DNA of 64,000 nucleotides from Algoriphagus sp. NG3 (GTDB taxonomy: Bacteria > Bacteroidota > Bacteroidia > Cytophagales > Cyclobacteriaceae), in contig NZ_CP139421.1 in NCBI RefSeq assembly GCF_034119865.1, positions 248,001-312,000 on the forward strand. Reading direction: 5' to 3'. Positions 8,827 to 38,352 of the stretch are shown here, piece after piece (the first letter of the stretch is position 1; the number at the start of each line of letters is the position of its first letter). A model generated the notes under the pieces. It was not told the origin of the DNA. It ran no database searches and was given only the letters and a program-made list of their open reading frames with translations. A program made the translations under genes and the position numbers.

Positions 8827-11379
8827 ATGAAGCATTTTACGATTCTATCTATAGTATTTTCTTTGTTTATCTATTTACTGCCCCACGGCGCTTTCTCTCA
8901 GCATAAAGATGTCTATGTTGACAAAGAGGGTGTAATCAGATGGCCTGACGGAGAAGAGGTTTATGGCTTTGGGGTAAACTATACTGTTCCTTTCGCACAT
9001 GCTTATCGCACTGCCAAAAAACTGGGAATAGATCCCAGAGAAGCGATGGAGAATGATGTCTATCATTTTGCACGTCTAGGATTTGATGCTTATCGGGTTC
9101 ATGTTTGGGATACGGAGATCAGTGACGAAAAAGGGAATCTGATGGAAAACGAGCACTTGGATCACTTCGATTACCTGATCCATCTGATGAAGAAGCGGGA
9201 CATGAAGTTCTTGCTGACACCTATAGCCTTCTGGGGAAATGGCTGGCCTGAGCCGAATGAAGATACTCCCGGATTTTCCCATAAATATGGTAAGGAAGCT
9301 TGTTTGACTGATCCGGACGCAATAGATGCGCAGGCAAATTATCTCAGCCAATTTTTGAATCATGTGAACCCATATACCGGGCTGGCCTATAAGGATGATC
9401 CAGATGTGATAGCATTTGAAGTCAGCAATGAACCCCATCATGATGAATCAGCGGAGAAAGTTACGGCTTATGTCAGCAAAATGGTGAAATCCATGAAAAG
9501 TACAGGAAGTGAAAAACCGATCTTCTATAATGTAAGCCATAGTATTCATCTAGTAGATGCTTATTATCAGGCTGAAATAGATGGGGGGACTTTCCAATGG
9601 TATCCCACAGGACTGGGAGCAGGGGAAGAAATCGGGGGCAATTTGCTTCCTAATGTGGATCAGTACACCATTCCCTTCGATGATCATGAAGGTTTTAGAA
9701 AGGGAGCCAAAGTGGTCTATGAATTCGATGCAGCTGATGTAGGAAGGTCTTATATCTATCCTGCCATGGCAAGAAGCTTTCGTACGGCAGGAATACAGTG
9801 GGCTACGCATTTTTCTTACGACCCTACCTATATGGCTTATGCCAATACCGAATACGATACGCACTACATGAATTTGGTATTTGCACCCCAAAAAGCCCTG
9901 AGTCTCAAAATAGCAGGTGAGGTTTTTTATCAAATGCCGACTTACAAAAACTATGGAAATTATCCTGAAAATCTACAATTTGACGGCTTTCGGATCAGTT
10001 ATCCCGATGACCTTGCTGAATATGTAAGCACCGATAAGTTCTTTTATACCAACGATACCGAGTCTGCTCCACAAGACCTTGACCAATTGAAAGAGCTGGC
10101 AGGTTATGGGAACTCCCCGGTGGTGAAGTATGATGGATCGGGTGCTTATTTTTTGGATAAACTGGATGAAGGGGTGTGGAGGCTGGAAGTGATGCCGGAT
10201 GCTTTCTGGATTGATAATTTGTTCGGTGATAATAGCCTGGATAAGAAAGTAGCCGATGTGCAATGGAATCAACGGACAATGAGTATCAATTTAGCTGATA
10301 TCGGGAAGTCATTTACTATCCAAGGACTCAATAAAGGAAATGAAACCAGCCTGAAAACCAGTGAAGGGAAGTTTCTTATCCGTCCTGGATCTTATCTCCT
10401 GGCTAAAGAAGGACGAGCTGGTGATTGGACAGCCGAAAGTTCTTATAAAAACATTCAAATAGGAGAGTTCTCAGCGCCAAAATCCACCGTTATCGGAACC
10501 AATTTGCTACATCAGCCAACTAGTGAATGGGAGGAGGGGAATGAGATAAAAATATCGGCAACTGTCATCAGTGAACAGGAGATCGAGGAGGTGAGTGTTT
10601 ATGCTTTCGTAGGGAATCGACCTAGAAAGATCCCATTGGTGGAGATGGGAAGAAACCTGTATGAAGTCGAGGTGCCGGGAGAATTGCTTAAGACAGGCTT
10701 TTTCAAGTACCACCTGCTGGTTACCACTCAAGAGAAAGAACTTACTTTCCCCTCGGGAATTGCAAGTAATCCGACTAATTGGGATTTTTATGCGGATGAG
10801 GTTTATGCGATTCGGATCCTACCTGATTCCTCTGCGATTTATCTGCTTGATGCGATGCGGGATTTTGAGCTGTTGAACATGCCTTGGTCCGCAGGTGTAA
10901 CCTTGCTACCATCCGCTGATCCGTCCAAGGCTTCTCTGGATGTCAACTTAGATGAATTACCCATAGATGATGGGCATAACGAGCCTAACTATGCTTTTCG
11001 CTTATATTTTGGAGATAAAGTAAGTGGCAGAAAGGAATCTCTGATTAAGGCAACTAAATTGGTGGTGACAGGGCAATCCCAAGAAGACAGTCCCAAAGAA
11101 ATAGAAGTATCACTACTCACCAAAAACGGTAACTCTTATGGAGGGACGGTTGCGTTAGGAAGTGAATATGGAGAATATTCCTTAGCTTTAAAAAGCTTGA
11201 AACCAACCGATTTGATCACATTGCCACGTCCCTATCCTGGGTTTTTACCTTATTATTTTGAACCTGGGACGGCTTCTGGACAATTCGATATTTCTGAAAT
11301 AGAAGTAGTACAGGTTTCTATTTCGCCGGAAAATAAGCCAAGCGCAAAATTGTCCATAACGAGCATCCATCTGGAATAA
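8827..11379 (+). CDS. Secreted GH5-like (beta/alpha)8 glycoside hydrolase
   Basis: I chose the ATG at 8827 (850 residues) because it opens a clean signal peptide (MKHFTILSIVFSLFIYLLP, cleavage after AFSQ). A longer frame from 8719 would start inside the repeat element. The N-terminal ~400 residues resemble a clan-A barrel of the GH5/cellulase type: VIAFEVSNEPHH carries the probable acid/base Glu202 (NEP motif), and KVVYEFDAADV carries a candidate nucleophile, Glu299. The C-terminal half looks like beta-sandwich domains, with an Ig-like stretch near residues 560-670, and has no recognised catalytic motif. It probably cleaves a beta-linked hemicellulosic or galactan-type glycan outside the cytoplasm. 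The family assignment is from motifs only; a distant GH2/GH42-like barrel is possible. Confidence 0.75.
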   Translation: MKHFTILSIVFSLFIYLLPHGAFSQHKDVYVDKEGVIRWPDGEEVYGFGVNYTVPFAHAYRTAKKLGIDPREAMENDVYHFARLGFDAYRVHVWDTEISDEKGNLMENEHLDHFDYLIHLMKKRDMKFLLTPIAFWGNGWPEPNEDTPGFSHKYGKEACLTDPDAIDAQANYLSQFLNHVNPYTGLAYKDDPDVIAFEVSNEPHHDESAEKVTAYVSKMVKSMKSTGSEKPIFYNVSHSIHLVDAYYQAEIDGGTFQWYPTGLGAGEEIGGNLLPNVDQYTIPFDDHEGFRKGAKVVYEFDAADVGRSYIYPAMARSFRTAGIQWATHFSYDPTYMAYANTEYDTHYMNLVFAPQKALSLKIAGEVFYQMPTYKNYGNYPENLQFDGFRISYPDDLAEYVSTDKFFYTNDTESAPQDLDQLKELAGYGNSPVVKYDGSGAYFLDKLDEGVWRLEVMPDAFWIDNLFGDNSLDKKVADVQWNQRTMSINLADIGKSFTIQGLNKGNETSLKTSEGKFLIRPGSYLLAKEGRAGDWTAESSYKNIQIGEFSAPKSTVIGTNLLHQPTSEWEEGNEIKISATVISEQEIEEVSVYAFVGNRPRKIPLVEMGRNLYEVEVPGELLKTGFFKYHLLVTTQEKELTFPSGIASNPTNWDFYADEVYAIRILPDSSAIYLLDAMRDFELLNMPWSAGVTLLPSADPSKASLDVNLDELPIDDGHNEPNYAFRLYFGDKVSGRKESLIKATKLVVTGQSQEDSPKEIEVSLLTKNGNSYGGTVALGSEYGEYSLALKSLKPTDLITLPRPYPGFLPYYFEPGTASGQFDISEIEVVQVSISPENKPSAKLSITSIHLE

Positions 11380-28180: not shown

Positions 28181-28216
28181 CTTTACGAAATCTTTATATT
28201 CCACAAACTAACTTTG
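28181..28216 (+). promoter_or_regulatory. Promoter with tandem CTTTAY operator before the KdpD-like gene
   Basis: CTTTAC at 28181 and CTTTAT at 28192 form a direct repeat with 11-bp period, as bound by OmpR-family regulators. A perfect -7 box TAACTTTG lies at 28209-28216. The same arrangement, at identical spacing, occurs at 29982-30017. The position implies a transcript start near 28222 and hence a start codon downstream of the longest open frame. Confidence 0.6.
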
Positions 28217-28227
28217 TAACAAAAAAA

Positions 28228-29310
28228 TTGGATTTACTTAGAACAAGGAAATATAGCACGGGAAATCAATACCTGATAGGTATTGTACTTATTGTGTTGA
28301 CCACTGTTTTGTGCTTTTTCTCCGTTGACTTCATAGGCTATAGGGCAGTAGCACTTATACTTTTAGTGGTGGTTTCATTAAACGCAGTTTTATTTGATAT
28401 TTTCCCTGTATTGCTATCTGCACTGTTAAGTGCATTGATTTGGAATTTCTTTTTTATCCCTCCCATTCTTACTTTACACATAGGCACACCGGAAGACGGA
28501 TTAATGTTTCTGATGTACTTTGTAATAGCTTCTATCAATGCCGTTTTGACATATAAAATCCGTGAAGTAGAACGAAAAGAAAGGGACGAAGAAGAAAAAG
28601 CGAAAGCAATCAAACTTTACAATACTTTACTTAATTCACTCTCGCATGAGTTGAGAACCCCCATTTCCACAATCATCGGAGCTATTGATACCATACAGGT
28701 CAACCAAACAAAACTCTCTGAAAACAGCAGGAATGAATTGTATTCGGAAATAGAAATCGCTGGCTATCGTTTGAACAGGCAAGTTGAAAACCTTTTGAGC
28801 ATGAGCCGGCTGGAAGCGGGTTTTATTCAGCCTAAAAAAGATTGGTGTGATCTAAGCGAAGTTATATTTACTGCGATTAAGGACAATAAGGAGGACGCCA
28901 AGGATCATTCTATTGCATTCAATCCGAATGAAAATTTGCCATTGTTTAAGCTGGATAGGGGGCTGATAGAGCAAATAGTCCATAATTTAATTCATAATGC
29001 CTTGCAGCATACACCTGAGAATTCTTCGGTAAAAATTGAAGTCAGCAACAGTGACACAACTTGTATTATTCAAATTTCAGACGACGGCAAAGGTTTCCCG
29101 GACAATGAAATTGGTTTTGTTTTTGACAAGTTTTACCGTCTGGACCACACATCAACAGGCGGCACGGGATTAGGGCTCTCTATCGTGAAGGGTTTTACTG
29201 AAGCAATGAACGGGGTGATATATTTAGAAAATGTACCGGAAAGCGGTGCAAAGTTCACCCTTGAAATTCCCTGTGAATTTTCTCAAAAAGCGGATTTGGA
29301 AAATGAATAA
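28228..29310 (+). CDS. Short KdpD-like sensor histidine kinase
   Basis: I place the start at TTG 28228 (360 residues). The frame is open back to a GTG at 28141, but that stretch contains the -7 box TAACTTTG and the operator repeats. The protein has four membrane helices of the KdpD DUF4118 type (LIGIVLIVLTTVLCFFSV through MFLMYFVIASINAVLTY), a HisKA domain with His140 in SLSHELRTP, and an ATPase domain with NLIHNALQHTP, DDGKGFP and GTGLGLSIVKGF. It lacks the ~400-residue cytosolic KdpD/USP sensor domain of classical KdpD. It overlaps the response-regulator gene by 8 bases. It probably senses potassium or turgor through the membrane domain alone. Confidence 0.85.
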   Translation: MDLLRTRKYSTGNQYLIGIVLIVLTTVLCFFSVDFIGYRAVALILLVVVSLNAVLFDIFPVLLSALLSALIWNFFFIPPILTLHIGTPEDGLMFLMYFVIASINAVLTYKIREVERKERDEEEKAKAIKLYNTLLNSLSHELRTPISTIIGAIDTIQVNQTKLSENSRNELYSEIEIAGYRLNRQVENLLSMSRLEAGFIQPKKDWCDLSEVIFTAIKDNKEDAKDHSIAFNPNENLPLFKLDRGLIEQIVHNLIHNALQHTPENSSVKIEVSNSDTTCIIQISDDGKGFPDNEIGFVFDKFYRLDHTSTGGTGLGLSIVKGFTEAMNGVIYLENVPESGAKFTLEIPCEFSQKADLENE

Positions 29311-29980
29311 AGCAGAAATACTTGTAATAGATGATGAACCGCAAATAAGGAAGCTGCTTCAAATTATCCTGGAGAGCAACGATTATAAAGTAGTTCAGGC
29401 AAGCTCAGGGAGAGAAGGATTAGTTTTGGCCGCCAACCATCCTCCCGACCTGATTTTATTGGATATTGGGTTACCTGACAAAAGCGGACACGGGATATTA
29501 AAAGAGTTAAGAGAGTGGTACAACAATCCTATTATTATACTTTCAGTGCAGGACAACGAGTCCGATATTGTTTCCGCCCTGGACAACGGAGCCGCTGACT
29601 ATTTAACCAAACCCTTTCGCTCAGGGGAATTATTGGCCAGGATACGTTCTGCCATTCGCAGAAGCCAGAATACAGATAACAACTCAACTTTAACCTGCGG
29701 TGATATCGAAATAGATTTTGTAGCCCGAGTTGTAACAAGAAAAGGCGGAACAGTTAAACTTACTTCCACCGAATATAATTTATTGGCATTGTTTGCCAGG
29801 AACGAAGGCAAGGTTTTAACGCACCAGTTTCTTTTGAAGGAAATTTGGGGGTACAGTTACCAAACCGAAACTCAATATTTACGGGTATTTGTCGGCACAC
29901 TTCGCAAGAAATTGGAAGATAACCCAAACAATCCTCAACATATACTTACTGAAAGTGGGGTTGGTTATCGGTTTGAATAG
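29303..29980 (+). CDS. KdpE-like response regulator (OmpR family)
   Basis: I chose the ATG at 29303 (225 residues, the usual KdpE length), which overlaps the kinase stop in ATGAATAA. The receiver domain carries VIDDEPQIRKLL, phospho-acceptor Asp54 in LILLDIGLP, and the conserved Lys in YLTKPF. The C-terminal winged helix is OmpR-type (KLTSTEYNLLALFARNEGKV, then ETQYLRVFVGTLRKKLEDNP and GVGYRFE). It should bind tandem repeats with an 11-bp period, which exist before both transcription units of this module. Confidence 0.9.
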   Translation: MNKAEILVIDDEPQIRKLLQIILESNDYKVVQASSGREGLVLAANHPPDLILLDIGLPDKSGHGILKELREWYNNPIIILSVQDNESDIVSALDNGAADYLTKPFRSGELLARIRSAIRRSQNTDNNSTLTCGDIEIDFVARVVTRKGGTVKLTSTEYNLLALFARNEGKVLTHQFLLKEIWGYSYQTETQYLRVFVGTLRKKLEDNPNNPQHILTESGVGYRFE

Positions 29981-29981
29981 T

Positions 29982-30017
29982 CTTTATAAAATCTTTATGC
30001 AGGGTGAATAAACCTTG
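29982..30017 (+). promoter_or_regulatory. Second promoter with tandem CTTTAT operator, before the small ORF and trkH
   Basis: CTTTAT at 29982 and at 29993 repeat with an 11-bp period. The 17-mer CTTTATAAAATCTTTAT differs at two positions from the one at 28181. AAACCTTG (30010-30017) sits at exactly the offset where the first promoter has TAACTTTG. The weaker -7 box fits an activator-dependent promoter with a leader of about 50 bases. Confidence 0.6.
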
Positions 30018-30070
30018 ATTTTTTACATATCCCTTACCTCTGACCTTTGTGGCATCAAAATGTCACGAAA

Positions 30071-30226
30071 ATGAAATGGGATTTTTTCTACGATGAGGAT
30101 GACAGTAAGCCTTACGAATCTTTTGAAGATTGGTATAAGGACATCAAGTATTTGATTGTTCCTACTATCCTCATGCTAGTGTCGGGGGCTGCTGTTTACA
30201 TCTACTTCCGGTTTTTCCATTTCTAA
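30071..30226 (+). CDS. 51-residue single-helix membrane peptide upstream of trkH
   Basis: ATG at 30071 opens a 51-codon frame ending TAA at 30226, 20 bp before trkH. The translation starts MKWDFFYDEDDSKPYESF, an acidic and aromatic N-terminus. It then carries one hydrophobic helix (YLIVPTILMLVSGAAVYIYF, residues ~27-46) and ends RFFHF. It fills the space between promoter and trkH, so it is probably translated with it. Small single-helix subunits accompany other potassium pumps (KdpF stabilises KdpABC), but no sequence relationship to KdpF is claimed. Function unknown; the frame is convincing by position and composition. Confidence 0.65.
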   Translation: MKWDFFYDEDDSKPYESFEDWYKDIKYLIVPTILMLVSGAAVYIYFRFFHF

Positions 30227-30246
30227 TTTATCAGATCAATCTAAAA

Positions 30247-31641
30247 ATGGAACTAGAACACAAGTTGTCCGATGGCAACGGAAAGAAAGCCAACGCTGGC
30301 AAACGGTATCAATTCATAAAACGATACCGGAGATTTCAACTATCGCTTTCACCACAGCAGAATTTGCTTTATGGCTTTCTGACTTACACGTTTATTGGTT
30401 GGCTTCTATTGTGCTTGCCATCCTTTCACAAGCAAGCGGTTTCAGCATTAGACAGCTTGTTTATTGCCACTTCAGCAATTTCAACGACAGGATTGGTAAC
30501 GGTAAGCGTTTTTGACACTTACAACTGGCTCGGCCAGTTAGTGGTGATGTTACTGTTTCAGATTGGGGGTATAGGATATATGACATTCACTTCCTTTGTT
30601 TTACTCTCCAAGAAAAGTCCATTGACGCATTGGCATCAACGCGTGTTGAACGCAGAATTTTCCATGCCTAAAGGGTTTGAAATCAAGGATTTTTTGAAGT
30701 CAGTCATCATCTTTACCATTGTTATAGAAACGCTGGGGGCATTAAGTTTTTATATAGCATTCACACAAGCAGGAGTTGATCATAATTTTGCGATTTGGAG
30801 CAGTGTTTATCATAGTGTTTCGGCATTCTGTACGGCAGGTTTCGGTCTGTATAATGACAGTTTTGAGCAATTTGCCGACAACTCATTTATAAATACTATA
30901 ATTTCCGTTTTGGCCATCTGTGGCTCTTTGGGTTTTATTGTTGTTACGGACTTATGGAATCGGATTTCAGGTAAAGCAACGGCAATTACCTACACTACAA
31001 AAACAATATTCGGAGTAATTACCTTATTGCTAACAATCGGCACTTTTATGATTTACTTTTTTGAGCCATCTGTAAGTCATATAGGAGAAAATAAATTAAT
31101 GGCTTCTTTTTTTCAGTCAATGACCGCACTGACCACCGTTGGATTTAATACGGTTCCGCTTGGTAGTTTTTCTTTGGGCGTGATGCTGGTGGTTATTTTT
31201 CTTATGTATGTAGGTGCTTCTCCATCGGGGACGGGCGGAGGAATGAAGTCAACTACATTAACAGCTTTAATCGCGATAATGTGGAACAGGATAAGAAATA
31301 ACAAACAGGTCACGTTTTTTGGGAAAGTCATTCCACTTGAAAGACTTTATGTGGCTACATCTGTCTTTATGCTGTATGCTTCAGTGATTTTTATCTCCAC
31401 CTTTCTATTGGCAATGACCGAAGAGTTTCCGCTACACCAGATACTTTTTGAGACCACATCAGCCATAGGGACAGTGGGATTAAGCACGGGAATTACAGGG
31501 AACCTGACCGCCTGGGGAAAGGTGGTTATTATTTTTGTAATGTTTGTTGGTAGATTAGGGGTTTTAACTTTTGGATTGGCAATTCTTGCCAGACGGAAAG
31601 AAATTATAGAGAGAGCAGATGAAGGCGATTTGGCAGTTTAA
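30247..31641 (+). CDS. TrkH/KtrB-family potassium channel subunit
   Basis: This 464-residue polytopic membrane protein has four MPM (membrane-pore-membrane) repeats. The pore glycines are visible in all four filters: STTGLVTVS, CTAGFGLYN, TTVGFNTVP and GTVGLSTGI. The extension GTGGGMKSTT after the third pore is the intramembrane loop that gates KtrB/TrkH. It moves potassium (or Na+/K+) into the cell together with a cytosolic TrkA/KtrA ring; none is encoded in the window. It overlaps the porin gene by 23 bases and lies downstream of the KdpE-type operator. Confidence 0.93.
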   Translation: MELEHKLSDGNGKKANAGKRYQFIKRYRRFQLSLSPQQNLLYGFLTYTFIGWLLLCLPSFHKQAVSALDSLFIATSAISTTGLVTVSVFDTYNWLGQLVVMLLFQIGGIGYMTFTSFVLLSKKSPLTHWHQRVLNAEFSMPKGFEIKDFLKSVIIFTIVIETLGALSFYIAFTQAGVDHNFAIWSSVYHSVSAFCTAGFGLYNDSFEQFADNSFINTIISVLAICGSLGFIVVTDLWNRISGKATAITYTTKTIFGVITLLLTIGTFMIYFFEPSVSHIGENKLMASFFQSMTALTTVGFNTVPLGSFSLGVMLVVIFLMYVGASPSGTGGGMKSTTLTALIAIMWNRIRNNKQVTFFGKVIPLERLYVATSVFMLYASVIFISTFLLAMTEEFPLHQILFETTSAIGTVGLSTGITGNLTAWGKVVIIFVMFVGRLGVLTFGLAILARRKEIIERADEGDLAV

Positions 31642-32731
31642 TAGTATCCTCCTGTTGAGTTTGTTGAGTTTCAAGCTTGCAGCACAGGTGGACAGTGTAT
31701 GGAGTCAAAAACCCACCTTGGAAATTTCGGGATTTGGGGATGTGTTTTATGTATATGATTTCAACAAACCAACAGGGACAGAAAGACAACCTTTTTTATA
31801 TAACCACAACAGGCACAACGAATTTAATTTGAATTTAGGGCTGATAAAGGTGGGGTTGGAGCATACAAAGTACAGAGCCAACCTGGCGCTGCAAACGGGA
31901 ACTTATGCTAACGACAATTATGCGGCAGAACCTGGACTCTTGAAAAACATCTTTGAAGCGAACATTGGAGTAGCACTGAACAGGGATAATACTCTCTGGC
32001 TGGATGCAGGGGTTTTACCTTCTCATATTGGTTTTGAAAGTGCTGTTTCTATGGATAATTGGACTATGACGCGATCCCTGTTGGCCGAAAATTCCCCGTA
32101 CTTTCTGACAGGGGCAAAATTGACTTTTAACCCGAAACAAAAATGGGAAATCGCAGGTTTGATTGTGAATGGTTGGCAAAGAATACAGCGACTTGAAGGG
32201 AATTCCTTGCCCTCTTTTGGCACTCAGATAAATTACAGTCCTACAGAGAAAGTGACCTTAAATTGGAGCACTTTTATTGGCACCGATACGCCAGATGAAA
32301 CCAGGCGCATGAGGTATTTCAATAATCTTTACGGCCAATTTCAATTCACGGAAAAGTTTGGTCTGATCACAGGTTTTGACATTGGGACACAGCAGAGGGT
32401 AAAGGGTAGTTCAGCTTATGACTTCTGGCTAAGCCCAGTTATTATCGGACAGTATGCCATCAATCGAAACTGGAAAACTGCAATAAGAGCAGAGTATTAC
32501 CAGGATAAGACAGGCGTTATTATCCCAACAGAAATAAAGGACGGATTCAAGACAACAGGGCTTTCTCTGAATCTTGACTACTCTCCGGCTCAGAACATTA
32601 TGTGCAGACTTGAAGGACGATGGTTAAGCAGTGAAAACAACTTTTTCGAAACTTCCACCGCACCAACAAATCATAACTTTATCATCGGGACATCTATTGC
32701 AATCAAATTTTCTGAGGTAATTAGGAAGTAG
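31619..32731 (+). CDS. Outer-membrane beta-barrel porin (OmpL/bbp2-like)
   Basis: This 370-residue protein has a signal peptide (MKAIWQFNSILLLSLLSFKL, cleavage after AAQ) and an alternating aromatic barrel pattern (ISGFGDVFYVYDFNKP, FNLNLGLIKVGLEHTKYRAN, NWSTFIGTD, LSLNLDYSPAQNIMCRLEGR). It resembles the porins found next to kdp operons in Bacteroidota (recalled association). Its 23-base overlap with trkH implies translational coupling. It probably lets ions pass the outer membrane to feed the inner-membrane transporter. Confidence 0.8.
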   Translation: MKAIWQFNSILLLSLLSFKLAAQVDSVWSQKPTLEISGFGDVFYVYDFNKPTGTERQPFLYNHNRHNEFNLNLGLIKVGLEHTKYRANLALQTGTYANDNYAAEPGLLKNIFEANIGVALNRDNTLWLDAGVLPSHIGFESAVSMDNWTMTRSLLAENSPYFLTGAKLTFNPKQKWEIAGLIVNGWQRIQRLEGNSLPSFGTQINYSPTEKVTLNWSTFIGTDTPDETRRMRYFNNLYGQFQFTEKFGLITGFDIGTQQRVKGSSAYDFWLSPVIIGQYAINRNWKTAIRAEYYQDKTGVIIPTEIKDGFKTTGLSLNLDYSPAQNIMCRLEGRWLSSENNFFETSTAPTNHNFIIGTSIAIKFSEVIRK

Positions 32732-33139: not shown

Positions 33140-34195
33140 ATGAAGACTAAACTTGCTGAATTATTAGGAGACGAGCTGGAATATCTACTAGGTCACGAAT
33201 GCGACACCATAGATAAAAAACTTCTACAATTGCCCTCGGAAAACTTTGTAGATCAGGTTTTTCTATATAGCAATAGAAATTCCCAGGTACTTCGAAATTT
33301 AAATTTGCTGTTCGGTACCGGGAGATTGGGAGGGACAGGTTATTTATCTATTCTTCCGGTAGATCAGGGGATAGAGCACTCTGCAGGAAGTGCCTTCGCC
33401 CCAAATCCCATATTTTTTGATCCGGAGAACATCATCAAGCTTGCCATAGAATCAGGGTGTAATGCCGTGGCTACCACGATGGGTTCACTCGCAATCCTCT
33501 CTAGGAAGTATGCCCATAAGATCCCGTTTATAGCCAAACTAAACCACAATGAGTTGCTAACATTCCCCAATAAGCACAATCAAATCATGTTTGGGTCAGT
33601 CGATGAGGCTTGGGGTTTGGGAGCGGCTGCAGTGGGAGCGACCGTTTATTTTGGGGCTGAAGAGTCAAATAGGCAAATCATGGAAGTTTCATCAGCTTTT
33701 GAGCGGGCACACGAATTGGGCATGGCCACCATTTTGTGGTGCTATACCAGAAATGAAGCTTTCGAAAAAGGCGGCACCAATTACGAGACTGCTGCTGATC
33801 TCACAGGACAGGCTAATCATCTGGGAGTAACGATCCAGGCAGATATTATCAAACAAAAGTTGCCTACTACCAATCGCGGATTTACTGCGGTGGGTTTTGG
33901 CAAATCAGACCCGGCAATGTATGACAAGCTCAGTAGTGAGCACCCCATAGACTTATGCCGATATCAAGTAGCAAACTGTTATATGGGTAAAATTGGGCTG
34001 ATCAATTCAGGAGGTGCATCTATAGGTGAGGGAGATATGGAGGAAGCTATCAAAACGGCAATAATCAACAAGCGTGCAGGCGGAATGGGTTTGATTATGG
34101 GGAGAAAGGCTTTTCAAAGACCAATGAAGGAAGGGATTATGTTGTTGAATAAAGTTCAAGATGTATATCTCAATTCGGAGATAACAATTGCCTAG
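33140..34195 (+). CDS. fbaB: Class I fructose-bisphosphate aldolase (DhnA type)
   Basis: At 351 residues it has the length of Escherichia coli FbaB (350), and by memory it matches closely along its whole length: [20 protein letters not shown], the [19 protein letters not shown] block, [31 protein letters not shown] [11 protein letters not shown], and the end [18 protein letters not shown]. Class I enzymes use a Schiff-base Lys and need no metal. In E. coli FbaB is the gluconeogenic/stationary-phase isozyme. It opens a long same-strand cluster of sugar-phosphate genes. Confidence 0.96.
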
Positions 34196-34310
34196 TCCTT
34201 TTGAAGCCCCTTTGATTAAATTGACGGAGCACCTATTGCTTCAGGATTGCAGCTGTGGACTTACATGATCCAACTGCTGTTTCAATTAATAAAAAGCAAG
34301 CATAAGAATT

Positions 34311-35039
34311 ATGTCAGATACGATGAATAATTATAAAGCAATTATATTGGATATGGACGGTGTGGTCACACTGACCGCCATGCTACATGCGGAGGCATGG
34401 AAGCAGATGTTTGATGGATTTTTGAGGGAAAGGAAAGGAAATGACTTTCAGCCTTTGGTGATCAAAACGGACTACAAGCGGCACATCGACGGTATACCAA
34501 GATTCGATGGCGTACGTAATTTTTTGGCCTCAAGGCAAATAGAGCTTCCGGAGGGTCACTACGAAGACGGTGCTGACAAAGAGTCTGTCTATGGTTTGGG
34601 GAATCGCAAAAATGTGATTTTCAGGGAGCTGGTTGAGACCAAAGGAGCACATATCTATGATGATGCCTTAGAGATGCTGGAGAAATGGAAGAAGGCAGAA
34701 CTCAAGTTGGCGATTATTTCCTCCAGCAGAAATTGCAGATATATTATTGAAGCTGCCGGTCTCACTGAAATGTTTGACGCTAGGGTAGATGGAGAAACGA
34801 TGGGTGAGGAGGGGCTTTCAGGCAAGCCGGAACCTGATATTTTTCTCAAGGCCTGTGAGCTTCTGGAGGTGGAGCCTCAAGAAGCAATGATCTTGGAAGA
34901 TTCTATTGCTGGAATATCAGCAGGTAAGAAAGGCGGATTTGCACAAGTGGTGGGGGTGGCAAGACATGGAGATGAGAGTGAGTTGGAAGAGGCTGGAGCA
35001 GATAGTATTGTAAAAAAACTGACTGAGCTAAAACTATGA
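34311..35039 (+). CDS. Beta-phosphoglucomutase-like HAD hydrolase
   Basis: This 242-residue protein has HAD motif I ILDMDGVVTLTA (nucleophile and acid/base Asp pair), motif II Ser in LAIISSSRNC, motif III Lys in GKPEPDIFLKA and motif IV LEDSIAGISAG. The cap segment DYKRHIDGIPRFDGVRNFLA matches the beta-phosphoglucomutase group. It would convert beta-glucose 1-phosphate, the product of an inverting GH65 phosphorylase, to glucose 6-phosphate. It overlaps otsB by 4 bases (ATGA). The HAD-OtsB-GH65 order equals the domain order in mycobacterial OtsB1 (from memory). Confidence 0.88.
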   Translation: MSDTMNNYKAIILDMDGVVTLTAMLHAEAWKQMFDGFLRERKGNDFQPLVIKTDYKRHIDGIPRFDGVRNFLASRQIELPEGHYEDGADKESVYGLGNRKNVIFRELVETKGAHIYDDALEMLEKWKKAELKLAIISSSRNCRYIIEAAGLTEMFDARVDGETMGEEGLSGKPEPDIFLKACELLEVEPQEAMILEDSIAGISAGKKGGFAQVVGVARHGDESELEEAGADSIVKKLTELKL

Positions 35040-35851
35040 ATGAACTATTGGACACCAAACCGTATGTAGATCTTCCTGATGCATTGGAGTATTTTAATGA
35101 AATAGCAAAAAAACTTGAAGGACAAAGGCCGATCCTTTTTCTAGACTATGATGGGACACTGACTCCCATCGTATCTAATCCTGAAGATGCCGTTCTATCG
35201 CCTGAAACAAAAGAAATAGTACAGGATTTAGCGGAGAAAATCACCATAGCTCTTATCAGTGGACGTGACCGGAAAAACGTGGAATCCCTTATTGGTCTAC
35301 CAAATGTGATCTATGCCGGTAGCCATGGTTTCGATATCACAGGTCCAAATGGTATGGAGAAGCAACATGAGAAAGGTCAAGATGTACTGCCTGCTTTGGA
35401 TGAAGCAGAGCGCAGTCTAAAAGACAGTTTGGCAAACATATCGGGGGTGCAGGTGGAGCGTAAAAAGTATGCCATAGCAGTGCATTATAGAAATGTTGAA
35501 AAAGAGTTTGTACAGCAAGTAAAAACGGCTGTCTCAAAAGAAATTGAAAAACAGCCAGAACTAAAAAAGGGGAAGGGGAAGAAAATTCGAGAGCTTAAAC
35601 CAGATATAGATTGGCATAAGGGCAAAGCTCTTTTGTGGTTGTTGGAAGAATTAAGTTCTAAAACGGATCAACTCTTCCCGGTTTTCATAGGGGATGATAT
35701 TACTGATGAAGATGCTTTTCAGGCAATTCAGGATAGGGGCATCGGAATTATAGTAGGATCTCATGAGACAGAGACTGCAGCGTCCTACAGTTTGGAAAAT
35801 GTGGAAGATGTCAATCTGTTTTTAAAGGAACTAAAAAAAATGCTGAACTGA
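35036..35851 (+). CDS. otsB: Trehalose-6-phosphate phosphatase
   Basis: This 271-residue HAD-type phosphatase has motif I FLDYDGTLTPI, ISGRDRKNVESLIGLPNVIY with AGSHGFDI (the OtsB signature), a Lys-rich stretch GKGKKIRELKPDIDWHKGKA, and motif IV GDDITDEDAFQAI. It removes phosphate from trehalose 6-phosphate. No otsA (synthase) occurs in the window, so the substrate must come from elsewhere or the enzyme may serve another disaccharide phosphate. It is coupled to the preceding HAD gene by a 4-base overlap and is 107 bp before the GH65 gene. Confidence 0.93.
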   Translation: MNELLDTKPYVDLPDALEYFNEIAKKLEGQRPILFLDYDGTLTPIVSNPEDAVLSPETKEIVQDLAEKITIALISGRDRKNVESLIGLPNVIYAGSHGFDITGPNGMEKQHEKGQDVLPALDEAERSLKDSLANISGVQVERKKYAIAVHYRNVEKEFVQQVKTAVSKEIEKQPELKKGKGKKIRELKPDIDWHKGKALLWLLEELSSKTDQLFPVFIGDDITDEDAFQAIQDRGIGIIVGSHETETAASYSLENVEDVNLFLKELKKMLN

Positions 35852-35958
35852 GAGAAATGAAATAAATACACTTAAGAAATTAAATCTATAGTCGGATCCC
35901 AGGTGGTGTTCAATAGATTTTTCTGTTTCAATAACTGCTAAACCATTTCAGGATACAC

Positions 35959-38352
35959 ATGAAAAAATTCAGCATAGTATATAAAAACTGGAATCCTAAA
36001 GAACAAAATCATAGGGAAGCTATCTGCACTTTGGGCAATGGATACATTGCTACCAGGGGTGCCGCAGAGGAGAGCGGCAACACGGAATATAATTATCCTG
36101 GGACTTACTTGGCAGGAGGATTCAACAGGGCCAAAACAGAAATTTCGGGAAGGACTATAGAAAATGAAGATTTTGTCAATTTCCCGAATTGGCTTTGTCT
36201 CAGTTTCAGACCCTCAGGTGGAGAATGGCTTGACCTGGAAAGATTCAAGGTGCTGGAGTACCGCCAGTCGCTTAATATGAAGAAGGGGATTCTAGAACGA
36301 AAGTTTCGAGTGGAAGATGCGGAAGGCAGAAAAACCTATATACGTAGCCGTCGACTGGTAAGTATGCACAAGAAGCATATGGCAGGTCTACAATGGATCT
36401 TCAGGCCTGAAAATTGGAGCGGGAAGGTTGAGTTTCGTTCAGCATTGGATGGGAATGTGATCAATGACAATGTAGCAAGGTACAGAGACTTGGAAAGCCA
36501 CCACTTGGTTCCTCAAGGTACAGATCTGAGTCAGGATCAAATCATTCAGCTATCCGTACAGACCAAGCAATCCAAGATCAGCATGGCACAAGCTGCCAGT
36601 ACCGCTATACTTTATCAGGGAAAATTACTCCCTGCTGAGATTGAAACATATCAGGATGAAGGTAGTATCAGTCAGGTTTTTTCTACGGAAATTAAGGAGG
36701 GGAATGAATATACAGTGGAAAAAACCGTGGCTATCTATACGTCGAGGGACGTGGCGATCAGTGAACCCGTACAGGAAGCATGTAAAAGTGTAAGACGGGC
36801 AGGTTCTTTTGCGGAGATGTTACGTGAACATACCTTGGCTTTTGAAACTTTATGGCATCGGGCTGATATAAAGTTGGTGGATGATGATAAAAACCAGCTT
36901 TTGTTGCGCCTTCATGCCTTCCATATCCTTCAGACCGTGTCTCCGAATGTGATTGGGGCAGATGTGGGTGTCCCTGCCAGAGGACTTCATGGGGAAGCTT
37001 ACCGAGGCCACATTTTTTGGGATGAACTGTTTGTTTTCCCGTTTCTCAATCTCCGCTTTCCCGAGATTACACGGAGCTTATTGATGTATCGGTACCACCG
37101 GCTAGATGAGGCACGTTATGCGGCTAGGGAGGAAGGAAAAAGAGGGGCAATGTTTCCCTGGCAAAGTGGTAGCAATGGCAGATCAGAAAGTCAGGTTCTG
37201 CATCTTAATCCAGAATCTGGTAGGTGGATTGGAGATAACACTTATCTGCAGCGACATGTGAATTCCGCTATAGCGTATAACATTTGGAATTATTTTTTGA
37301 CTACGGGAGATCGAAAGTTTCTGTCTTTTTTCGGGGCTGAAATGTTTTTGAGTATTGCGGCATTCTGGGCAAGTATGGTCATATATAATGCGGAGGAGGA
37401 CCGCTATGAAATCCACGGAATAGTAGGGCCTGATGAATATCATACTGCCTATCCAGGTTCAGAGGAACCTGGATTGAAAAACAACGCCTATACCAATGTG
37501 ATGACTGCCTGGGTGATGCAGAAGGCATTGGAAATCCTTGAGATTATCGATACACGACGCAAGGAGGAATTGCTGCAGTCATTGGAGATCAATGATTTGG
37601 AAATACAACTATGGAAGGAAATCAGTCACAAAATGCATGTTCCTTTTATTGAAGAGGGTATTATCAACCAATTTGAGGGCTATGAAAAGCTAGATGAGTT
37701 TCCTTGGGATGAGTACCGGGAGAAATATGATGATATCCACCGACTGGACCGTGTTTTAGAAAATGAAAACAAAGATCCAAACAACTACAAAGCAAGCAAA
37801 CAAGCTGATGTGCTTATGCTTTTTTACTTGTTTTCAGTGGATGAACTCCATTTGATTTTTAAGAAGCTTGGCCATGAAGTGGATGAAGATGTAATTGTGA
37901 AAAACATAGAATACTATCGAAAACGAACCTCTCATGGTTCTACGCTTAGCAGGGTTGTCTTTTCATGGATCCTTTTGAAATACAATCAACTTCAGTCCTG
38001 GCAGAATTTTGAAAAGGTGCTAGTGAGTGACTTTGAAGATATACAGGGCGGTACCACCGCCGAAGGTATTCACCTTGGAGCGATGGCAGGTTCACTTGAT
38101 CTGGTCCAACGGGGATTCTTGGGGTTGGAAGTTGGTGAGGATACGCTTTGGATCAATCCTCACAGGCTAGACTACATCAAGGAAGTGTCTTTGAAAGTAA
38201 ACTTTCGGAGCCATTGGGTATTGGTCTTCCTTGCAGACAAAAAACTGAAAATCATTTTTGAAGAAGGATATAAGGATAAACTAGAAATCGGTGTTGTAGA
38301 TGACATCTATGAGTTCCACAAAGGAATAGCACGGGAATTTTCCCTTGCCTGA
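35959..38352 (+). CDS. GH65 disaccharide phosphorylase (trehalose/maltose/kojibiose type)
   Basis: This 797-residue protein shows the GH65 layout: an N-terminal beta-sandwich (LGNGYIATRGAAEES), an (alpha/alpha)6 barrel (RGLHGEAYRGHIFWDELFVF, FPWQSGSNG), and the catalytic acid Glu493 in GIVGPDEYH. The phosphate-binding block SHGSTLSRVVFSW marks a phosphorylase rather than a hydrolase. GH65 phosphorylases split alpha-glucobioses with inversion to glucose and beta-glucose 1-phosphate. The neighbouring beta-phosphoglucomutase-like and OtsB genes make trehalose the favoured substrate, but the sequence alone does not decide between trehalose, maltose and kojibiose. Confidence 0.92.
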   Translation: MKKFSIVYKNWNPKEQNHREAICTLGNGYIATRGAAEESGNTEYNYPGTYLAGGFNRAKTEISGRTIENEDFVNFPNWLCLSFRPSGGEWLDLERFKVLEYRQSLNMKKGILERKFRVEDAEGRKTYIRSRRLVSMHKKHMAGLQWIFRPENWSGKVEFRSALDGNVINDNVARYRDLESHHLVPQGTDLSQDQIIQLSVQTKQSKISMAQAASTAILYQGKLLPAEIETYQDEGSISQVFSTEIKEGNEYTVEKTVAIYTSRDVAISEPVQEACKSVRRAGSFAEMLREHTLAFETLWHRADIKLVDDDKNQLLLRLHAFHILQTVSPNVIGADVGVPARGLHGEAYRGHIFWDELFVFPFLNLRFPEITRSLLMYRYHRLDEARYAAREEGKRGAMFPWQSGSNGRSESQVLHLNPESGRWIGDNTYLQRHVNSAIAYNIWNYFLTTGDRKFLSFFGAEMFLSIAAFWASMVIYNAEEDRYEIHGIVGPDEYHTAYPGSEEPGLKNNAYTNVMTAWVMQKALEILEIIDTRRKEELLQSLEINDLEIQLWKEISHKMHVPFIEEGIINQFEGYEKLDEFPWDEYREKYDDIHRLDRVLENENKDPNNYKASKQADVLMLFYLFSVDELHLIFKKLGHEVDEDVIVKNIEYYRKRTSHGSTLSRVVFSWILLKYNQLQSWQNFEKVLVSDFEDIQGGTTAEGIHLGAMAGSLDLVQRGFLGLEVGEDTLWINPHRLDYIKEVSLKVNFRSHWVLVFLADKKLKIIFEEGYKDKLEIGVVDDIYEFHKGIAREFSLA

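Follow-up and report, generated by a model that had tools for sequence, protein, structure and literature searches.

The analysis concerns a potassium-transport locus of Algoriphagus sp. NG3 in which a short KdpD-like sensor kinase and a KdpE-like response regulator are encoded beside a TrkH-family potassium transporter and an outer-membrane porin. It lies at positions 28181 to 32731 of the window, the whole stretch of 64,000 nucleotides that was analysed (G000:C1:248001-312000, in a genome that is a single contig of 5.89 Mb). Sequence comparison makes it probable that the locus is a self-activating switch for low K+ in which regulator and operator are fixed and the transporter is exchanged. 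It is also probable that the KdpE-type regulator, its box and a fixed geometry, with a 32-bp step between boxes and the last box 28 bp before the -7 promoter element, make up a portable low-K+ unit that has several times changed its transporter (KdpFABC, KtrB/TrkH, KtrBA, TrkHA and Kup) and whose kinase is without the pump-inhibiting domain where Kdp is not the target. The original prediction had proposed that a KdpDE-like pair here regulates itself and drives trkH and the porin; the conservation of the operator and its match to the KdpE box support this, and the regulation itself is something that we still infer.

The target of Escherichia coli KdpE has been described as half-sites TTTATA and TTTACA, set 5 bp apart and each with an essential TTTA core, covered by a footprint from -72 to -50 (available part of PMC3264566), and E. 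coli K-12 DNA agrees with TTTATA-N5-TTTACA. The window boxes, TTTACG-AAATC-TTTATA and TTTATA-AAATC-TTTATG, fit the target TTTA(T/C)A-N5-TTTA(T/C)A in their TTTAY cores and in the spacer, the sixth base being variable; judged by its sequence, the window operator is a KdpE-type box. The best solved relative of the regulator is likewise KdpE (4kny). R193, said in the same portion of PMC3264566 to be conserved only in KdpE orthologs, is kept in the window regulator together with R200 and the wing threonine that are also named there (YLRVFVGTLRKK against YLRIYMGHLRQK and TESGVGYRF against TETGIGYRF in the 4kny alignment), and each of the 41 KdpE-like regulators compared shows both recognition arginines.

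The two 17-mers of the form CTTTAY-N5-CTTTAT that had been reported at 28181 and 29982 do stand at both places (Table 1), the latter starting 2 bases past the end of the regulator gene. In a flavobacterium the -7 box has been placed at -12 to -5 (available part of PMC9723704). Taking that position, the far box of the trkH promoter begins at -72 and the near box at -40, and the predicted start of the far box coincides with the start of the E. coli KdpE footprint; the kinase promoter carries a near-position box alone. The original prediction also put a -7-like octamer 28 bp past the start of each operator. The distances are right at both and the kinase -7 element stands, but AAACCTTG at 30010 was rejected as the -7 element of trkH; it overlaps the second box, and the conserved element is GACCTTTG at 30042.

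Table 1. Genes and promoter features of the locus, in window coordinates
Feature	Position	Strand	Remarks
Proximal-position KdpE-type box of the kinase-regulator promoter, CTTTACGAAATCTTTAT	28181..28197	+	No distal box there
-7 element of the kinase promoter, TAACTTTG	28209..28216	+	28 bp from box start; predicted transcript start ~28221
Short KdpD-like sensor kinase, 360 amino acids	28228 (TTG)-29310	+	DUF4118 membrane domain, HisKA and HATPase_c; without PF02702
KdpE-like OmpR-type response regulator	29303-29980	+	Receiver and winged helix; 8-bp overlap with kinase gene
Distal KdpE-type box of the peptide-trkH-porin promoter, CTTTATAAAATCTTTAT	29982..29998	+	In 11/11 modules
Proximal, weaker KdpE-type box, CTTGATTTTTTACATAT	30014..30030	+	32 bp past distal box; overlaps AAACCTTG
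-7 element of the peptide-trkH-porin promoter, GACCTTTG	30042..30049	+	28 bp from proximal box start; predicted transcript start ~30054
51-amino-acid peptide, hydrophobic C-terminal half	30071-30226	+	Matches no family in scans
TrkH-family, KtrB-type K+ transporter subunit	30247-31641	+	PF02386; five solved relatives, all KtrB
BBP2 (PF07642) outer-membrane porin	31619-32731	+	Sole BBP2 match of the genome

Eleven Trk modules were compared, namely that of the window, those of nine named genomes (Algoriphagus, Algibacter, two Flavobacterium, Confluentibacter, Aestuariibaculum, Galbibacter, Sinomicrobium and Leeuwenhoekiella) and that of genome G498. The distal box on the trkH side was found in all 11, perfect in nine and matching at 11/12 positions in two, so that the tandem site, on whose conservation the original prediction had been staked, is kept in related genomes. 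On the kinase side the box scored 12/12 in four modules and 11 in one. The alignment of the modules has 12/17 invariant columns in the distal box, 0/15 in the spacer that follows, 10/17 in the proximal box and 0/11 in the next spacer. All 17 columns of the distal box are common to at least 9/11 modules, against 4/15 in the spacer, as are 16/17 columns of the proximal box. The -7 octamer at offset 60 holds TTTG in every module, with 7/8 columns invariant.

A genome-wide search for CTTTAY-N5-CTTTAT had been suggested as a check. In the window genome the bare pattern was matched seven times and its reversed control 10 times, which is chance level, and it was dropped as evidence; what held was its conservation at the related modules. 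A longer pattern (box, N11 and next octamer), composed after the module promoters had been inspected, gave 10 zero-mismatch matches over the 10 module genomes; every one of them lay at a module, and two were the window's own. With up to two mismatches 15/17 matches lay at modules, and with up to three there were 35 against 25 in the reversed control, which is noise level. At the two-mismatch promoter matches off modules in G006:C14 and G005:C1, ORF (open reading frame) comparison revealed no K+ gene.

The association extends well beyond trkH. A set of 27 non-Kdp loci was assembled from the 11 Trk modules, seven loci with a short DUF4118 kinase of the window's class and nine from a family search (two weak G223 matches, G351, G370, G056:C96 and G091:C140 were left out of the short-DUF4118 set), and a box scoring at least 11 was present in 25 of them. 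The short DUF4118 kinase and KdpE-like regulator adjoin Kup at 13 loci, 12 of which have such a box; the 13 Kup proteins are 43-71% identical to that of locus L180, and three of them were scanned as K_trans. The same pair adjoins KtrB-KtrA in L179 and TrkH-TrkA in L207, each with a box of at least 11 (1/1 in both cases). One module, L013, has a third box ahead of a gene pair of the TrkH family (KtrB) and TrkA_N/TrkA_C (KtrA).

The kdp operons themselves were divided according to their regulator. Among 38 kdp stretches, 37 of which have a KdpA ORF (L221 is without), 14 were KdpE-type, 14 sigma-54-type and in nine neither regulator was found; L188 and L189 were kept out of both the kdp and the non-Kdp counts. 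A box of at least 11 lay within 1.5 kb upstream of kdpA, a range that may include intervening genes, at 13/14 KdpE-type loci where shuffles expect 0.25, and a perfect box at 8/14 where 0.02 are expected, although within 500 bp of kdpA only 6/14 have a box of at least 11. None of the 14 sigma-54-type loci had one within the 1.5 kb (0.50 expected), and of those with neither regulator type two of nine did. The box therefore goes, on these counts, with the KdpE-type regulator and not with the Kdp pump. The sigma-54-type kdp operons of Bacteroidota differ from the window locus in having an NtrC-type regulator, a HAMP-type kinase and a separate KdpD N-terminal protein, with no box of at least 11 in 14/14, and resemble it in that a BBP2-like porin gene occurs in 11/14 stretches. 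Many kdp operons from the window's class (L057-L072) have the same make-up of sigma-54 regulator, HAMP kinase, separate KdpD N-terminal protein and BBP2-like porin; the one-mismatch boxes in these 16 stretches are scattered and were taken as chance. At L189:7524-7633, ahead of a DUF4118 kinase, four KdpE-type boxes stand in tandem (two perfect, two with one mismatch) in steps of 30-32 bp, the last of them beginning 28 bp upstream of TAGCTTTG.

The spacing between box and -7 element is also shared. Among 34 non-Kdp promoters with a box of at least 11, a -7-type TTTG octamer stands at 28 bp (with none at 59/60) in eight and at 59 or 60 bp in 22, while four have it at neither distance; 30/34 thus have it at one of these distances, whereas shuffles average 0.6 and reach at most 4/34. 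The best second box at offset 32 has a mean score of 8.45 in the 11 trk promoters, 7.93 in 15 kup and other promoters and 8.42 in 12 kdp promoters (a set that includes L188 and L047), against a background of ~4.3, and the next-best offsets reach just 6.13 in the kup set and 6.33 in the kdp set. As the promoter sets were picked for a first box (that of L211 scoring 10), it is the second offset alone that is tested by these figures. An exact distance from box to -7 element is clear in only some of the kdp promoters.

The Kdp pump itself was not met with in the module carriers, a KdpA search giving no match in the window genome, the nine other module genomes or G498. As far as KdpA shows, the absence of kdpABC that had been predicted is thus borne out for the window genome, and no kdpABC operon with a different operator was found for this pair to serve. 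Neither the window kinase nor the rest of the window genome matched PF02702, the KdpD N-terminal domain, although the order of DUF4118 followed by HisKA and HATPase_c is the KdpD-type layout. Among 27 genomes with a non-Kdp pair KdpA was found in four, the same four had PF02702 above the cut-off and 23 had neither, although one PF02702 match under the cut-off was seen in G009. The KdpD N-terminal domain has been described as a serine kinase, with KdpB as its known substrate, through which the pump is inhibited (available part of PMC11018627), so that absence of this domain would make sense where there is no pump. Split KdpD systems are on record from D. radiodurans, Anabaena and Alicyclobacillus, with others that have separate serine-kinase and histidine-kinase chains (same part of PMC11018627). 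They share with the window a histidine kinase chain without the N-terminal serine-kinase domain, but they keep KdpFABC and a separate N-terminal chain, neither of which was found in the window genome. That survey, according to the same text, took in species with annotated Kdp(F)ABC, and most non-Kdp systems would therefore lie outside it. In a sample of the phylum KdpA was found in 111/395 genomes and the TrkH subfamily (E up to 1e-100) in 5/395, none of these five being among the 111. The TrkH subfamily was found in 7/245 genomes of the window's family and in none of the eight other sampled members of its genus.

Kinase, KdpE-like regulator, 51-amino-acid peptide, TrkH/KtrB and porin had been read as lying on one strand, and domain scans and ORFs agree. 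Because the kinase and regulator genes overlap and the trkH and porin genes overlap, the locus is likely to consist of two transcription units. The TTG start of the kinase is a prediction; the aligned codon is TTG in 9/11 modules, whereas L169 has CTG and L015 has TTC with a GTG ahead of it. The TTG stands ~7 nt past the predicted transcript start, giving a predicted leader of ~7 nt, and the kinase message is possibly near-leaderless with a weak start codon.

The designation of the transporter as TrkH/KtrB can be narrowed. Membership of the family is confirmed by PF02386 (167.5 bits, cut-off 27), and with five solved relatives found, all of them KtrB, the protein is better called KtrB-like. 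The two TrkA/KtrA genes found in the genome (TrkA_N with TrkA_C) adjoin its two other TrkH-family genes. For TrkH homologs at 44-60% identity, ORF comparison found no adjoining kinase-regulator pair in L054, L055, L056, L170 and L171, where the contig of L171 is only 6.1 kb and the comparison did not extend to G471, G638 and G551. A protein of 109-117 amino acids precedes trkH in flavobacterial modules (L010:5634-5981, also L011, L012, L013, L014 and L016), and the L010 copy matched no Pfam family. Between regulator and peptide an ApbE (flavin transferase) gene lies at L013:4306-5316, and L014:4316-5305 is an ORF of like size in the same place.

The 51-amino-acid peptide is known from eight database proteins, that of the window included. 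In L179 a gene for this type of peptide (9326-9559) stands after the KtrB-KtrA-kinase-regulator cluster, with its own one-mismatch box, a TTTG octamer 60 bp on and no trkH behind it. Since this copy follows a box without trkH, it is plausible that the peptide is a target in its own right. The window porin is 41-53% identical to porins from six kdp operons and 25% to that of a seventh, and porins 45-57% identical to it occur next to Kup at two loci and also at the TrkHA locus. The presence of BBP2-like porins at sigma-54-type kdp, Kup and TrkHA loci suggests that they are an outer-membrane path for K+. In the module of Algoriphagus locisalis (L008:7370-8478) the BBP2 porin gene is broken into two reading frames.

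Flavobacterial copies share 75-83% identity with the module TrkH, whereas for the genome's own KtrB the identity is 45-51% with flavobacterial KtrB and 85% with that of the Algoriphagus genome. Because the module TrkH is so much closer to the flavobacterial copies, the cassette has probably moved between families. In an unrooted tree of 41 regulators the Kdp-linked set stands apart (100/98), with long branches in some of its rows, and Kup-, Trk-, KtrBA- and TrkHA-linked regulators are intermixed. Six partner labels need six changes on this tree where the minimum is five, and the starred branches force at least three for Kup, which is consistent with an exchange of partners.

In the mechanism that we infer for the locus, with respect to binding, sign of regulation, K+ signal, transport and the roles of peptide and porin alike, low K+ would cause the KdpD-like kinase, through its membrane sensor and histidine-kinase core, to phosphorylate the KdpE-like regulator, which would then bind CTTTAY half-sites in pairs with an 11-bp step. 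The regulator would sit close to the -7 element of the kinase promoter, from about -40 to -24; on the peptide-trkH-porin promoter it would occupy two places, one from about -72 to -56 and the other from about -40 to -24. At both promoters it would recruit sigma-A RNA polymerase. The switch would thereby amplify its own expression and increase both K+ import by the KtrB-type TrkH and K+ entry through the porin. Pair and operator are a conserved unit, whose alternative partners in Bacteroidota are KtrB/TrkH, KtrBA, TrkHA, Kup and KdpFABC.

A number of observations weigh against this reading. On the kinase side the box is weak (score 10) in 4/11 modules, and in two (L009 and L016) none of at least 10 was found. 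The modules are kin and their promoters not independent, and in the trk set offsets 39 (8.27) and 52 (8.0) nearly match offset 32, for which reasons the kup and kdp sets are the stronger test of that offset. L184 has the pair, but no box of at least 11 and no recognised K+ transporter alongside. Within the module the peptide is present in 6/11 cases, and the porin adjoins trkH in 3/11, one of the three being interrupted, which rules it out as a fixed part. No TrkA/KtrA gene was found in the window module. The window TrkH reaches 265.5 bits with TIGR00933 (TrkH subfamily), below the cut-off of 331.15. Since the best NCBIfam match of the regulator, KdpE NF007820 at 230.3 bits, stays below its cut-off of 325, the protein is on that score KdpE-like and not an equivalog. 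The K+ signal, finally, would be borrowed from E. coli KdpD, the N-terminal part of which is missing here.

Other explanations were considered. That the boxes are conserved merely through a recent spread of the cassette, and bind nothing or another OmpR-type regulator, is rather improbable. The closeness of the module TrkH to flavobacterial copies, which the genome's own KtrB does not share, would favour it, but the spacers of the Trk promoters hold no invariant column when the distal box holds 12/17 and the -7 element 7/8. Both the box and its 28/60 spacing recur, moreover, in kup and ktrBA promoters next to a regulator of this type; at kdp operons the box is found where the regulator is KdpE-type and is absent from those of sigma-54 type. 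An osmotic or Na+ stress signal, with the pairing right and the KtrB-type protein serving turgor or Na+ handling, is unlikely. In its favour, the window kinase is without PF02702, the transporter has its solved relatives in KtrB, a family of Na+-dependent K+ uptake, and several of the named module carriers are presumably marine. What the box-bearing loci have in common, however, is K+ import (by TrkH, KtrBA, TrkHA, Kup or KdpABC), and the DUF4118 membrane region is retained.

The layout first put forward for the trkH promoter, in which a lone box at 29982 acts 28 bp before AAACCTTG as -7 element, is very improbable. This octamer does begin 28 bp past the box and is identical in 7/11 modules, with L016 reading CAACTTTG, but the position is without TTTG in 10/11 modules, L013 having ATCCCTTG and L014 AGTTCTTG, and TTTG is universal in the octamer at offset 60. 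Eight kinase- or transporter-side promoters of kup and ktrBA loci that have the 59/60 octamer have none at 28.

With the E. coli KdpD/KdpE-kdpFABC system the window locus has in common a DUF4118-type kinase, a KdpE-type regulator, paired TTTAY half-sites with a 5-bp spacer and, as predicted for the window, a far box starting at -72. It differs in that the transporter is a KtrB-type TrkH in a genome where no KdpA was found, the kinase is without the KdpD N-terminal domain, boxes occupy the -40 position too and the pair has a box-bearing promoter of its own. There is also a likeness to PhoB and the pho box, where a regulator of the OmpR/PhoB family acts on 11-bp direct repeats that replace the upstream core promoter element; regulator family, 11-bp direct repeats and the place of the upstream core element are the same, but the window half-site is TTTAY, not TGTCA, and the -7 element is of the Bacteroidota kind.

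Trk and Kup are commonly taken to be constitutive, with KdpDE serving to switch the Kdp pump (available part of PMC2813290). If the low-K+ switch proposed here is real, Kup and Trk would in these bacteria be inducible K+ importers, and bacteria without the pump would retain its switch and apply it to other importers. KdpE regulons would be predictable from the 17-bp box and its fixed distance to the -7 element, which would permit an operator-based prediction of K+-starvation genes in a phylum whose regulation has been little mapped. The loci would also offer a natural test of the purpose of the KdpD N-terminal domain, found above cut-off only alongside KdpA in the 27 genomes examined. Among the open-access papers that literature searches brought up, none was found whose title or abstract opening links KdpDE to Kup or Trk in Bacteroidota; subscription papers lay outside these searches.

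Downstream of the porin, the region 33140-38352 includes a DeoC/LacD-family aldolase that was recognised by domain scan. Its further ORFs are taken by us to resemble a beta-phosphoglucomutase-type HAD protein, a trehalose-phosphatase-like protein and a GH65-type phosphorylase.

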